Source: Sulfurovum sp. TSL6 (GTDB taxonomy: Bacteria > Campylobacterota > Campylobacteria > Campylobacterales > Sulfurovaceae). From it: a stretch of DNA of 64,000 nucleotides. The position numbers and the translations under genes are program-made. The notes below the pieces were generated by a model. The model was not told where the DNA came from. It made no database searches and saw only the letters and a list, made by a program, of their open reading frames with translations. Positions 11,558-47,227 of this stretch are shown one piece after another. The DNA lies in assembly GCF_019972115.1 (NCBI RefSeq), contig NZ_BPFJ01000002.1:434001-498000 (forward strand), given 5' to 3'. Within the stretch, counting starts at the first letter, position 1. Each line of letters starts with the position of its first letter.

Positions 11558-12547
11558 TTATCTATCGTTTGAAAGTAGTTCTTCTATTGTCGTATTCACA
11601 TCAGATTCTGTATATCTAAGCGCTTGAAAAATAGCATTTTTAATCGCTTTTGCATTTGAGCTACCATGACTGATAATAGCACAGCCATTGATACCCAGAA
11701 GTGGTGCTCCACCATATTCTGCATAGTCAACTTGCTTTTTCATATTTCCAAACACTTTTCTTTTCATCATCAATGCACCGATCTTTGCCGGTAATGATTT
11801 TCGAATATGTTGTCTCATCAATGTAAAGATAGTGGATACCACACCTTCACTTGTCTTCAGTAAAATATTACCTGTAAACCCATCACAGACAACGACATTC
11901 ACGTTACCGTTAAAGATGTCTCTACCTTCAACATTACCCACAAAACCATCTAAACCTTGTAGCAGTTTAAAGGCTGCTTTCGTCAAAGTATTACCCTTAG
12001 AATCTTCAGACCCATTAGATAAAAGCCCTACTTTAGGAGAGGCTATACCTAAGATCTGTTGCGCATATGCTTCACCCATCGCACCAAACTCATAAAGGTT
12101 TTGAGGTGTACAGTCTGTTACTGCACCTACGTCCAGTACTAATGTCTTAGTCGTTACAACACTTGGCATCAATGTAGCAAGCGCAGGCTTAGAGATATGC
12201 GGTAAACGTCCTATTCGCAATGTAGCCAATGTCATGGTTGCACCACTGTGGCCCGCTGAAACTACAGCAGAGGCTTCTTTTTCACGTACAAGTTCCACCG
12301 CTTTGTAAATAGATGAATCTTTACGCTTAAGTGCATCCGTCGCCTGATCGCTCATAGATATCACATCATTCGCTTCAACAATTTCAACTTTGTCTGCATA
12401 ATATGGGGGGAGGAAAGAGCGTATCTCTTCTGTATTACCTACTAAAATAGGAAGGAATTTTTCAGATTCCAGTGCTTGAACCACACCTTCTATAATAGGC
12501 TCAGGACCGAAGTCCCCGCCCATAGCGTCAATCGCAATCTTTATCAT
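11558..12547 (-). CDS. plsX: Phosphate acyltransferase PlsX
   Basis: PlsX makes acyl-phosphate from acyl-ACP for glycerolipid synthesis. The family N terminus [12 protein letters not shown] is intact, followed by [21 protein letters not shown]-like and [12 protein letters not shown] motifs. The frame is open to a TTG at 12550, but the adjacent ATG at 12545-12547 is the more likely start; it gives 329 residues. It follows rpmF by 5 bp and precedes fabH, giving the classic DUF177-rpmF-plsX-fabH string that couples a ribosomal protein with lipid synthesis. Confidence 0.96.
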
Positions 12548-12552
12548 CAAGA

Positions 12553-12714
12553 TTATGCTTTGGTTGTTTTGTACTCACCGGTAGTCATGTTCATGTGGTG
12601 AGGCATTCTCCATGTTCCATCTGCATCTTTAACTGGCATTGGTAATGTCAATTTGTAATGTGTTCTTCTTTTCGCTGCTCTTGTGTGACTCACACGTCTT
12701 TTAGGTACTGCCAT
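12553..12714 (-). CDS. rpmF: 50S ribosomal protein L32
   Basis: A 53-codon gene. It encodes a very basic protein starting [17 protein letters not shown], the standard L32 N terminus, and ending in a [10 protein letters not shown] tail. ATG at 12712-12714 is preceded on the minus strand by AAGGAC. The zinc cysteines found in some L32 proteins are absent, so it is the zinc-free form. Its position between the DUF177 gene and plsX is the usual one in bacteria and confirms the call. Confidence 0.96.
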
Positions 12715-28774: not shown

Positions 28775-28831
28775 ATTATGTTAAAATCCTCATAAATTAT
28801 TCTATGACTATTATACAAAAAAAATGGAGAA

Positions 28832-29470
28832 ATGCAAGTGCGATCACTTTTTATCACTGCTACAGGTACAAACATTGGCAAAACACATACCACAGTTCAA
28901 CTCATTGAAGCTTTTGCCGCCAAAGGTTTGTCTGTGGGTGTATTTAAACCTATCGAAACAGGTGTAAGTACCTTACCCCATGATGCTAGTTTACTCTTAA
29001 AAGTTTGCCAAAAGGTAAACAAGAACTTTAAAAATCTCAATCCAGAAGATATCACAGCATATACTTTTCCTCTTCCAGCAGCCCCTTTTTGTGCAGATAT
29101 ACATCAAGAAATAGTCCTTGAGAAGATCATCAAAAAGTACCACGAACTCTCACAGCTTTGTGACATACTTCTGGTTGAAGGTGCCGGTGGTCTTTTGGTC
29201 CCTGTAACAAAAGATTTTATGATGATCGATCTGGCTAAAAAACTAAAAGCCAAAGTGCTTTTGGTCACACCCAGCAGATTAGGATGCATCAATGATACTT
29301 TACTCTCCATGGAAGCCCTAAATTCTCGTAATATGGGGTTTGAATGGTGTGTAAACCTCTTTGAAGACAAAGAGAGTTTTTCTGAAGTCACACAGCCTTT
29401 TTATGATGAAGTCTTCCCTGATTGGTGGAGTGTTGAAGCAGGAATACAAAGGTTTATTAGCACCTATTAG
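28832..29470 (+). CDS. bioD: Dethiobiotin synthetase
   Basis: BioD closes the ureido ring in biotin synthesis. P-loop TATGTNIGKT lies at residues 9-18, followed by KPIETG and LLVEGAGGLLVP, all family hallmarks. The 212-residue length is normal. The ATG at 28832 is very close to the GGAG box; a GTG at 28838 sits eight bases from it and may be the true start, which would remove two residues. No other biotin gene is in the window. It may be cotranscribed with pyrB, 34 bp on. Confidence 0.93.
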   Translation: MQVRSLFITATGTNIGKTHTTVQLIEAFAAKGLSVGVFKPIETGVSTLPHDASLLLKVCQKVNKNFKNLNPEDITAYTFPLPAAPFCADIHQEIVLEKIIKKYHELSQLCDILLVEGAGGLLVPVTKDFMMIDLAKKLKAKVLLVTPSRLGCINDTLLSMEALNSRNMGFEWCVNLFEDKESFSEVTQPFYDEVFPDWWSVEAGIQRFISTY

Positions 29471-42941: not shown

Positions 42942-44246
42942 ATGAGTAAAAAATTAGAAGATATTTTTAACTTTACCGATACCAGTGAAGCCTGTATCAA
43001 ATGTGGAAAATGCATCCCAGTATGTACCATCCACCAAGTAAACCCGGATGAAACAACTTCTCCTCGTGGGTTCATTGACCTTTTAGGTGCCTATCAAAAA
43101 GGCGATCTGGAACTAGATAAAAATGCCAAAGATATTTTCGAATCTTGTTTCTTGTGTACCAACTGTGTCGATGTCTGTCCTAACTCATTGGCTACGGATA
43201 TGATCATCGAAGAAGTGCGTGCCGATATCGCGGATAAGTTCGGTATAGCATGGTTCAAACGCGGATTTTTCTACCTGCTTCGCCACCGTAAGATCATGGA
43301 CCTGGTCATGAAACTTGGCTTCATGTTCAAAACCTGTGCATTGTCTGTAGATGAAAAAGGCAGAGGTCTTAGAGCAAGATTTTCCCTCCCTATGGTAAAA
43401 AAAGGCAGACTGCTTCCATCATTGGCAAAAACAAGCTTTTTAAATAGTCATCCTGAAGAGATACCTGCACCGCTGCAAGAGAAGAAAAACCCTCGTGTAG
43501 CGATCTTCATTGGATGTCTTGCCAACTATAACTATACAGATATCGGCGAGAGTTTGGTAGAAATACTGAAACAATTGAATATTGATGTGTTCATCCCTAA
43601 AAAACAACTCTGTTGCGGTGCGCCAGCCTACTTTACAGGAGATGTTGATTCTGTAGAGTTTATGACCAAAAAAAATATCGAATACTTTGAGGGTTTTATG
43701 GATGAGTGTGATGCGATGTTAATCCCTGAAGCAACCTGTTCAGCGATGGTAAAACATGATTGGCAGGTCTTCTTTGAAAATCATGATATGCCTGAATGGA
43801 AAGAACGTGCAGAAAAAGTAGCCCAGAAGATCCACATGGCAACGGCATGGCTCTATAACAATACCGACCTGGTTAAATTACTGGCAGAAAAGGGTAAAAA
43901 GTTTGATGACGTCGTCACGTATCATGACCCTTGTCATGCGAGGAAAGTACAGGGTATCTGGGAAGAACCTCGGAACCTACTTGCGCAAAACTATCCGATG
44001 AAAGAGATGAGTGATCCGAACCGCTGTTGTGGATTTGGTGGGGTAACGATGCAAACAGAGAAGTTCCATCTTGCAGAAGCTGCAGGAAAACCTAAAGCAG
44101 CCATGATCGATGATACAAAAGCCAAATATGTAAGTGCAGAATGTAGTGCTTGTCGTGTACAACTGAGTGAAGCGATGAACAACGCAGAGGTAGAGACTAT
44201 CTTTAAAAATCCTTTAGAGCTTATAGCTGAGGCTCTTAAGGATTAA
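42942..44246 (+). CDS. GlpC/HdrD-like Fe-S protein with two CCG domains
   Basis: A 434-residue electron-transfer subunit. Two 4Fe-4S motifs open it (C18-xx-C21-xx-C24-xxx-C28, and ESCFLCTNCVDVCP), followed by two cysteine-rich CCG domains: CGAPAYFTGD in the first, and CHARKVQG...RCCGFGG plus the ECSACR end in the second. This is the layout of GlpC, glycolate oxidase GlcF and HdrD subunits, which pass electrons from an oxidoreductase to quinone or a disulfide. No partner flavoprotein is adjacent, so its substrate is open. It is next to hemN, as in relatives. Confidence 0.9.
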   Translation: MSKKLEDIFNFTDTSEACIKCGKCIPVCTIHQVNPDETTSPRGFIDLLGAYQKGDLELDKNAKDIFESCFLCTNCVDVCPNSLATDMIIEEVRADIADKFGIAWFKRGFFYLLRHRKIMDLVMKLGFMFKTCALSVDEKGRGLRARFSLPMVKKGRLLPSLAKTSFLNSHPEEIPAPLQEKKNPRVAIFIGCLANYNYTDIGESLVEILKQLNIDVFIPKKQLCCGAPAYFTGDVDSVEFMTKKNIEYFEGFMDECDAMLIPEATCSAMVKHDWQVFFENHDMPEWKERAEKVAQKIHMATAWLYNNTDLVKLLAEKGKKFDDVVTYHDPCHARKVQGIWEEPRNLLAQNYPMKEMSDPNRCCGFGGVTMQTEKFHLAEAAGKPKAAMIDDTKAKYVSAECSACRVQLSEAMNNAEVETIFKNPLELIAEALKD

Positions 44247-45487
44247 CCAAATCGGCAGGCATCTCCTGCCTTGATAACAAAGATATTATATCCATCTATA
44301 TATTTATACTCCAATCCACAACCTAATTTTTCCAAAATATTATGAACAATATAAAGTCCCAAACCAAAACCTGAACTTCTTTTTTCTCCCTGGGAAAAGG
44401 GTTCTACATAATAAGAGAGCGGATGTTGCAGTTTTTCACCCTTAGAACTGATCTCCAAACCATCCCCTACCGATTTAATTGTCACGTGTTTATCTTTGCT
44501 ATATTTTATCCCATTGTCTAGCAGGTTCTTAATAGCTAGGGAGAGTAGTTTGATATCTGTAGCTAAAGCGATATTTTTCACATCGACAGTAATGTTATCT
44601 TTAGGCATCATCAAAAGTTCTTGACTTCTTCGTATGATTTCATCAAGCATGACATACTCATATGTAGGTTCAAAACTTTGCGTCGTCACCCTCTCTATCT
44701 CTGCAAGTTCCGAGATCAGTTCATTCATCCGTTCAAAGGCACGTACAAGTATCTTTTTACTTGCTTCATCTTCCATCATTTCAACAACGATACGCCCTTT
44801 GGTAATAGGCGTTTTAAGCTCATGCATCAAGTTACGCATAAAAAGGTTTTTAGAGGTACTCAAAGCATTGATATGCACAATAGCATCATCAAAACTTTTT
44901 GCAATTTTACCTATCTCATCATCATAGAGATAGGTAATGCGTGTCTGCATATCCCCCTGGGCAAATCTTTGTATCTGTTTATGTAATTTTTTTAAAGGAT
45001 AAAGTTTTCTTAAAACCGCCAAATAGAGTATAAAAAGTACAGCAATAAGAAAAACACCCAAGGCGACAGCGATCTCGAAATAATAATTCTCTGGCCTGTC
45101 ATCTTCTAACAAAAGATTGTGTTGCATACGTTGTACATAGATATAATGTTCATCTTCTACTCTAAAAACCCTCACTTGTCCAACAGAAGAGCCTCCGGTA
45201 AACACTGTTTCACCCTCTGTTTCGATCTGCTTTTTAATCTCTATGGCCTTCTTCTGAGACAGTGGTTTTACACGTAAGTCTTTATAGAGTGAATCCAAGT
45301 CTTCTTTTCCTGGATTGAGCTGTAATTTTGAGAGAAAAGTAATGGAGATAAGTTGATAGTGTTTATACTCTTCGATCTTATGTCGGTCTTTATCCCAGGA
45401 AAGAAAAAGTAAAAAAGTAGCGATCAAAATCAAAATTGCTACGGAGAAAAGAATATGTATAAAGGTGGTTACGGATAAGTTTTTCAT
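44243..45487 (-). CDS. ArsS-type sensor histidine kinase
   Basis: A 414-residue membrane kinase: TM1 about 8-29, a periplasmic sensor of about 115 residues, TM2 about 150-168, HAMP, then the dimerisation domain with MHELKTPITKG. The ATPase domain has NLLDNGIKYSKD and GFGLGLYIVHNIL. The short C terminus and the sequence style match the Campylobacterota ArsS group; H. pylori ArsS senses acid. The signal here is unknown. It overlaps its response regulator by 4 bp and converges with the GlpC-like gene. Confidence 0.93.
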   Translation of the reverse strand: MKNLSVTTFIHILFSVAILILIATFLLFLSWDKDRHKIEEYKHYQLISITFLSKLQLNPGKEDLDSLYKDLRVKPLSQKKAIEIKKQIETEGETVFTGGSSVGQVRVFRVEDEHYIYVQRMQHNLLLEDDRPENYYFEIAVALGVFLIAVLFILYLAVLRKLYPLKKLHKQIQRFAQGDMQTRITYLYDDEIGKIAKSFDDAIVHINALSTSKNLFMRNLMHELKTPITKGRIVVEMMEDEASKKILVRAFERMNELISELAEIERVTTQSFEPTYEYVMLDEIIRRSQELLMMPKDNITVDVKNIALATDIKLLSLAIKNLLDNGIKYSKDKHVTIKSVGDGLEISSKGEKLQHPLSYYVEPFSQGEKRSSGFGLGLYIVHNILEKLGCGLEYKYIDGYNIFVIKAGDACRFG

Positions 45488-46164
45488 ACTCTATCAGTTA
45501 AAAGGTATCCTACACCACGAATCGGTTTAATGTAAATGTTATCAGGATCTATTTTCGCGATTTTCTGTCGTATCCGTGAAATGATCACATCAATATTTTT
45601 AATAGAACTGTCATCATCAATATGTTCACTTTCATATAAAAGCTGTTCTCTTGAGACAGAGCCGTTCTTGTGCTGTAAGAGCATACCCAAGATATCATAC
45701 TCTGCAGCAGTGAGTTCTAATGACTTCCCTTTGAAGCGGATCTCTCTGGCGTTAGGGTCTGCAACAAAAAGTGCTTCTGCTTCCTGTACTTTTTCCTCTA
45801 CACTGTGTGTACGTCTTAAAATCGTTTTGATACGTGTCACAAGTTCTCTAGGATCATAAGGTTTTGGCATATAATCATCTGCACCACGTTCCATACCGAT
45901 CACCTTATCGGTAATATCATCTCTTGCTGAAGAGATGATAATAGGAATATTGGTCAGATCACGTATTTTAGGGATCACTTCCAACCCATCCATACCCGGC
46001 AAGGTCAAATCTAAAATGATCAGATCAAATTCATGCTGTGTTAAAAGTGAAAGTCCTATATAAGGGTCTTCAGCACCTATCACTTCCATATCATATTTTG
46101 TAAGGTAATTTGTTAAGATGAGTGCTAATTCCGGATCATCTTCTATAATGAGTATTTTTATAAT
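45484..46164 (-). CDS. OmpR-type response regulator with a non-standard start
   Basis: The full protein (226 residues) has receiver motifs IIEDD, LILDLTLPGMDG, IISSARDD and KPYDP, then a winged helix ending IRGVGYLL. It pairs with the downstream kinase as an ArsR-like regulator. The first ATG (46089) would cut off strand 1 and the acidic pocket. Between the in-frame stop at 46192-46194 and that ATG there is no ATG, GTG or TTG. ATT at 46162-46164 (or ATC next to it) lies at good distance from AAGGA in AAGGAAG (46170-46176) and begins IIKILIIEDDPEL. So an AUU or AUC start is inferred; a sequencing error is the alternative. Confidence 0.85.
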   Translation of the reverse strand: MIKILIIEDDPELALILTNYLTKYDMEVIGAEDPYIGLSLLTQHEFDLIILDLTLPGMDGLEVIPKIRDLTNIPIIISSARDDITDKVIGMERGADDYMPKPYDPRELVTRIKTILRRTHSVEEKVQEAEALFVADPNAREIRFKGKSLELTAAEYDILGMLLQHKNGSVSREQLLYESEHIDDDSSIKNIDVIISRIRQKIAKIDPDNIYIKPIRGVGYLLTDRV

Positions 46165-46183
46165 GATGTCTTCCTTATGTAAC

Positions 46184-47227
46184 TTACGTGATCAGTTTAC
46201 TTTGTTCTTTATGATTATAATCTATATATACTTTAGTAATCGCAATCAAAAATGAAGTAATCGCCGGTCCCAATATCATTCCCCAAAAGCCGTACGTACT
46301 CATCCCTGCGATAATAGAGAAAAATATAACAATCTCATTGATCTCGATCGTACTTTTCAATAGATCTACTTTGATCACTTTGATAATCACCGGTTTAATG
46401 AGCGTATCGGCGATGATAGAAATAACAACAATAGAATAACTCGCAATAAAAATGGCCGTGTTCGCATCCATATTTGACCAAGAATACAATACCACGGGTA
46501 TCCAGACAACAGCCCCTCCAATGACAGGTATCAATGATGCAAAACCATAGATCACACCAAAAAGCAGTCCATTAAATCCGAAGTAACTCACCATGACCCC
46601 AAATAGGAAACCTTCAAAAATGGCTGTCACAACGATCGAATAAAAAACCACTTCCATCGTAGAAGATACTTCATGTATCATCTTGGCACTTTTCATTCTG
46701 CTCACAGGCATGAGTGCACGTATCAGATCAAAAAAGCCTTCCCCATAGAAGTTGATGATAAAATAAAAAACAAGTACAAGAATCATATTCTTCACAAACC
46801 CAAGACCCGCACTTCCGGCTGTTGTCATGTAAGAGGTTGACTCTTGGATATACCCTGCGATCCTTTCATCACTCAAACCTATCTGACTCCACTCTTTTAC
46901 ATAGGGTATCTTTTGTGTAAAGGTTTGAACGACCGAGGTAACCTCATTGATGGTTTCAACATCAAGTTGTGCGATATACCCTACCCCTGTGGTTGCCATA
47001 TAAATGATAGGTGCAAATAGTATCAAGATCAATAGTGAAGAAGTAAAAATAGCACTCAACTTTCTGGAATTAAAATATTTGATCAATTTTTTTGTCAGGT
47101 TGTACGTTGCCATAGTAAGCAACATCGCCACTACAATAGAGAGTAAAAAGGGTTTGTAGATACTATAGGCACCCATCAGTGAAAGTACAAAAAGTATAGT
47201 GATCGTGATACTTTTATTCGTTATCAA
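46184..47227 (-). CDS. AI-2E-family transporter (putative permease)
   Basis: A 347-residue membrane protein of the AI-2E/PerM family with about seven to eight helices: paired N-terminal helices, a soluble segment (about 75-135), then [23 protein letters not shown] and [10 protein letters not shown] near the end. Family members are linked to quorum-signal export or to Na+/Li+ exchange; the substrate here is not known. The start is TTG at 47225-47227, with AAGGAC upstream inside ruvB, giving a 14-bp overlap with ruvB. The regulator gene follows. Confidence 0.9.

Follow-up and report, generated by a model that had tools for sequence, protein, structure and literature searches.

An AUU-type start codon retained on an OmpR-type response regulator gene in Sulfurovum and related Campylobacterales

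Introduction

Among regulators with weak start codons, sigR of Streptomyces is translated from a GTC start that is repressed by IF3, and a canonical start overproduces the regulator (PMC5472188). AUU and AUA starts in S. aureus yield about 10% of the expression from AUG in poor medium, and the start of one such gene, ccpN, is retained as AUU, AUC or AUA (hereafter AUH) in B. subtilis as well (PMC13009471). Starts of the AUU type are extremely rare: a survey of start-codon evolution counted one switch to AUU among 61,358 ancestral AUG starts (PMC5622118).

Here we follow up an original prediction, made from a 64-kb stretch of Sulfurovum DNA (the window, in which all positions are counted), that a response regulator gene lacks an ATG, GTG or TTG start. 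Among the titles and passages returned by a literature search covering non-canonical and AUU starts, Sulfurovum, Campylobacter, Arcobacter and HP0166, none reports an AUH start on this regulator, and a C. jejuni ribosome-profiling paper (PMC11955535) yielded no relevant passage on non-canonical starts.

Results

The regulator gene and its frame

The gene is followed downstream by a kinase gene whose ATG overlaps the regulator stop (ATGA; Table 1). Read from upstream of the first in-frame ATG, the protein matches the PF00072 receiver over positions 1-111 of 111, whereas the open reading frame from 46089 enters the domain only at position 24; the receiver N terminus is thus encoded upstream of that ATG, as had been proposed. 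A complete receiver together with a winged-helix output domain (PF00486, 1-77 of 77) places the protein in the OmpR family, and none of the best 25 NCBIfam models listed for it reached its cut-off. Calling it ArsR-like seems fair, given that the adjoining kinase belongs by sequence to the ArsS family (NF038389, 439 bits). Scanning the frame on the minus strand from the TGA at 46192-46194 to the ATG at 46087-46089 turned up no ATG, GTG or TTG, confirming that a standard start is lacking there. The codons that follow the AAGGAAG in this frame are ATC (46165-46167), ATT (46162-46164) and ATA (46159-46161). As judged from its sequence and that of its relatives, the gene is an OmpR-type response regulator with a non-standard AUU start.

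Table 1. Features of the regulator locus, in window positions.
Feature	Position	Strand	Basis
OmpR-type response regulator gene, from ATT start	45484..46164	minus	PF00072 receiver + PF00486 Trans_reg_C
ATT start codon, kept as AUH	46162..46164	minus	aligned orthologue codons
Shine-Dalgarno AAGGAAG	46170..46176	minus	AAGGA ends 7 nt before ATT
In-frame stop TGA, upstream of regulator	46192..46194	minus	ATG/GTG/TTG absent between TGA and ATT
First canonical in-frame codon ATG, unlikely alternative start	46087..46089	minus	Shine-Dalgarno match of at least 5 nt lacking; loses PF00072 positions 1-23
ArsS-family sensor histidine kinase	44243..45487	minus	NF038389 439 bits, cut-off 250
AI-2E family transporter, upstream neighbour	46184..47227	minus	PF01594

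Position of the start codon within Sulfurovum

Of 78 Sulfurovum genomes searched, 71 have the regulator orthologue. At E 1e-90 a close copy is absent from the other seven (G003, G006, G017, G024, G068, G071 and G079), three of which have a listed completeness of 90% or more. Orthologues were aligned on the K of KILIIEDD, which sets the start codon at position -2; one locus, a fragment that stops short of the regulator start (L110), was omitted. The comparison with relatives that had been proposed as a check gives ATT in 41/71 and ATC in 19/71 (60/71 between them), ATG in 11/71 and ATA in none of the 71. There is free variation at codons -3 and -4, and in 4/71 codon -4 is a stop that lies between the Shine-Dalgarno and the start, which places the start at codon -2; within the run of candidate codons, ATT is preferred over the neighbouring ATC because the ATG of relatives aligns with it. 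Conservation of the frame sets in at the ATT, with no constraint upstream of it, and changes over codons -1 to +22 are mostly synonymous.

The suspicion that a base error at 46162-46167, from sequencing or assembly, conceals an ATG can be set aside, its probability being practically nil: independent genomes carry the same kind of codon, with a non-AUG codon likewise present in 60/71 Sulfurovum genomes and in other families.

Separately, the Ile codon at +1 (46153-46155, following the first Lys) reads ATA in 67/67 Sulfurovum rows with Ile there (70 compared), against an ATA share of 22% among the Ile codons of the regulator gene; the codons for Ile at +4 and Asp at +6 are likewise unusually fixed.

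Shine-Dalgarno sequence and leader

The AAGGAAG had been described as well placed, and indeed its AAGGA ends at a spacing matched across relatives: in all 140 AUH loci that we read, 5 nt or more match the Shine-Dalgarno at a spacing of 5-7. The same criterion selects 11/24 orthologues with AUG at -2 and, as background, 33 of 1500 sampled in-frame positions within regulator genes. Pairing predicted against a generic 16S tail is, on average, weaker for AUH loci than for AUG orthologues (-5.85 vs -7.74 kcal/mol), so that the idea of a stronger Shine-Dalgarno compensating for the start codon is unsupported. What is conserved at AUH starts is the presence and spacing of the Shine-Dalgarno and not its strength. 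A search around the Sulfurovum regulator start revealed no conserved RNA structure; in f8, a second family of the order, there is a weak helix downstream of the start (-2.14 vs -0.22 for shuffled columns).

The Shine-Dalgarno also bears on whether translation begins instead further downstream, at the ATG at 46089 or some other canonical codon, with the upstream frame untranslated. An ATG does lie 26 codons into the frame in 71/71 Sulfurovum rows; yet none of the 60 Sulfurovum AUH rows has a Shine-Dalgarno of at least 5 nt at a spacing of 4-10 before it, the residue aligned to it is Ile in 26/30 f8 orthologues, and the first canonical codon falls at differing offsets between groups. Furthermore, the mostly synonymous changes over the intervening codons and the loss of receiver positions 1-23 argue against such a start. 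On these comparisons the short form from 46089, which had been named as an alternative product, is unlikely, and downstream initiation in general appears highly improbable.

The start codon beyond Sulfurovum

Orthologues were read from the rest of the Sulfurovaceae (78 loci out of 84 genomes with a match, 6 being omitted), from f8 (61 genomes drawn, 39 with a match in 15 of 20 genera; 30 loci read) and from further families. Of the 21 same-order families drawn on besides f1, regulator matches were read from 11 (f4, f5, f6, f8, f9, f10, f11, f18, f19, f20 and f22). L112, L113 and L117 were omitted as duplicates, being the same genes as L313, L292 and L315. Another 80 named loci overlap with the sampled genomes and served for names and a cross-check alone. 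Across Sulfurovaceae, f8 and ten further families, codon -2 is AUH at 140 of 192 orthologue loci: 60/71 in Sulfurovum, 48/78 in other Sulfurovaceae, 30/30 in f8, 1/2 in f22, 1/1 in f11 and 0/10 in the remaining families, where the ten loci, from eight families, start with ATG. By codon, the other Sulfurovaceae genera have ATT 28, ATC 9, ATA 11 and ATG 4 at -2, with 18/78 starting at an ATG one codon later and 8/78 at a canonical codon upstream in frame; f8 has ATA 16, ATT 8 and ATC 6; and G057 (f22) and G046 (f11) have ATT and G258 (f22) has ATG.

The first two bases of codon -2 are kept as AT in 164 of the 172 rows without an ATG at -1, and the remaining 8 have a canonical codon upstream. Codon -1 varies (Ile, Thr, Val, Arg, Asn) while -2 remains AUH, and at 128/140 AUH loci no canonical codon occurs between the in-frame stop and the start. 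The AUH start on the regulator is, by these aligned codons, kept across at least two Campylobacterales families. The Sulfurovaceae genus g25 has taken another route to a canonical start: its regulator is slightly extended at the N terminus, with an ATG or GTG lying 5-6 codons upstream (L254, L259, L273, L275, L277, L278 and L280).

A protein tree, built without the first residues and rooted by hand on a distant orthologue, gathers every AUH locus into a 182-tip clade (SH-aLRT 99), with G258 in another branch. The tree calls for no fewer than 12 switches between AUH and canonical states and, like other quick trees with long branches, deserves less trust. AUG arose several times within Sulfurovum. 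Some lineages have changed over to AUG, or now begin at a canonical codon that lies upstream or a single codon downstream. As the sequences stand, the simplest reading would be one old AUH origin followed by several reversions to AUG or shifts of the start.

Evolution of the third base

Conservation of AUH could also reflect a start that is nearly neutral, in which Shine-Dalgarno and context dominate, the scarcely read third base drifts among T, C, A and G, and regulatory role is nil. Third-base changes to or from G make up 7/20 at the Sulfurovum start, 0/7 in f8 and 0/3 in g32, beside fourfold-site ratios of 0.45, 0.19 and 0.22. On these counts G changes show no clear deficit relative to fourfold sites and do not demonstrate strong selection against AUG. 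This similarity and the several gains of AUG in Sulfurovum favour a near-neutral start. Against it, ATA occurs in 0/71 Sulfurovum starts while f8 and g23 mostly use ATA, the paralogue described below retains AUG in 30/30, and published reporters lose much of their expression at AUU and AUA (PMC13009471). A makes up 25% on average at Sulfurovum fourfold sites, and only one of the 37 such sites lacks it altogether; among the other Ile columns of the regulator in that genus, 1/17 likewise lacks ATA, so its absence at the start is unusual and not unique. The third base is thus not simply free, being without ATA in Sulfurovum and favouring it in f8 and g23. With G changes near the fourfold rate, we keep the near-neutral start as a rival that deserves attention and that we nevertheless consider rather unlikely.

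Control genes, initiator tRNA and gene neighbourhood

Among the genes compared, the AUH start seems particular to this one. The nearest paralogue (51% identical) starts with ATG in 30/30 loci read (72 genomes with a match). Fifty-one window ORFs have relatives in two or more of three other genomes; among them, a clear extension upstream of the first canonical codon is seen for the regulator only. A further two ORFs, 11561-12574 and 28808-29467, were flagged as AUH candidates; in these, 8 partly conserved residues precede a fitting ATG, and we read them as conserved upstream sequence and not as AUH starts.

The original prediction had likened the start to the autoregulated AUU of E. coli infC. 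The kind of start codon is indeed shared, but infC itself starts with TTG (UUG) in 30/30 Campylobacterales loci read (L055-L084; 54 genomes with a match), and for this reason the analogy does not transfer directly. The TTG of infC here, in place of the AUU, AUC or AUA of E. coli, Streptomyces or S. aureus, raises in its own right the question of how IF3 level is controlled.

A pattern search found two initiator-type anticodon arms in the genome, both of tRNA-Met with CAT, under an exact pattern that a divergent arm could escape. This speaks against a dedicated initiator tRNA whose different anticodon reads AUU or AUC, an explanation that we rate as even more remote than a downstream start.

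The AI-2E gene directly upstream of the regulator in 68/71 Sulfurovum loci might instead deliver ribosomes by frameshifting or by re-initiation, in which case the start codon would hardly matter. However, this gene is upstream in 13/75 other Sulfurovaceae and 0/30 f8 loci and is not upstream in most other AUH groups, and stops stand in all three frames near the start at most loci inspected, making this route very unlikely. On the downstream side, the ATGA overlap with the kinase is commoner at AUH loci in raw counts (90/140 vs 21/50, Fisher p 0.008); independent pairs (4 supported) give a median p of 1, and the link between AUH and overlap was dropped.

Discussion

Comparison across genomes shows the place of the start, its conservation (in Sulfurovaceae and f8, and in one member each of two more families), its Shine-Dalgarno and its rarity among neighbouring genes. 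The reading that we favour, at a probability of roughly four in five, is that a conserved, inefficient AUH start with a fixed Shine-Dalgarno, read by the ordinary initiator tRNA, holds the regulator low relative to its ArsS-family kinase. Under this scheme that tRNA would begin translation at AUU (in relatives, at AUC or AUA), with the Shine-Dalgarno at its fixed distance as guide, and we assume formyl-Met as the first residue even though the start codon reads Ile. Published cases suggest that AUH would initiate at a fraction of AUG efficiency, and such inefficiency would keep the response regulator scarce beside the neighbouring kinase. The low expression that had been predicted would fit known AUU starts. 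The same published cases suggest that regulator level may track initiation fidelity, through IF3 and growth state; dependence of this start on IF3 is what we infer by analogy.

The AUH start has probably persisted because it keeps the regulator scarce and its level adjustable. We would go further only tentatively, on balance doubting it somewhat, to suggest that in Campylobacterales the response regulator, and not infC, has carried a fidelity-sensitive AUH start since before the split of Sulfurovaceae and f8, tying the dose of the signalling system to initiation-factor balance or growth state. If true, this would amount to a translational set-point on a two-component system across the whole lineage. 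A regulator with an AUH start in at least two families is a natural case in which to ask why an inefficient start persists. Gene callers that accept only ATG, GTG or TTG would trim or miss the N terminus of its receiver domain.

The mechanism is already known, and the regulator would be a new and unusually deep instance of it. E. coli infC (AUU, with IF3 autoregulation) and pcnB (AUU) share with it an expression-limiting AUU start (PMC13009471, PMC5472188), yet belong to another gene class; IF3 control has been shown for infC there, and infC is UUG in the Campylobacterales loci read. The S. aureus genes ccpN (AUA), cvfC1 (AUU) and infC (AUA) resemble the Sulfurovum regulator in having a conserved AUH and a suitably spaced Shine-Dalgarno; theirs is extended, against some 5-7 nt for the regulator, and the expression of the S. 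aureus genes has been measured (PMC13009471). RcsD-Hpt of Yersinia pestis, a phosphorelay protein, also has an AUU start and a predicted ribosome-binding site, but that start lies inside a frameshifted rcsD and is not an ancestral gene start (PMC10191623). Helicobacter ArsRS (HP0166/HP0165; PMC2736386) likewise pairs a response regulator with an ArsS-family kinase; the likeness here is one of sequence, and the orthologues read in eight further families of the order have an ATG start.

The closest case is sigR of Streptomyces, in which a weak start on a regulator is followed by a coupled partner, the place taken here by the kinase (PMC5472188). Both have a conserved non-canonical start on a transcriptional regulator, a conserved ribosome-binding site and a translationally coupled partner gene. 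They differ in that sigR belongs to a sigma/anti-sigma pair, starts with GTC or GTT rather than AUH and has been followed in one genus (34 genomes; PMC5472188), whereas the present gene is a two-component regulator whose AUH start recurs in several families.
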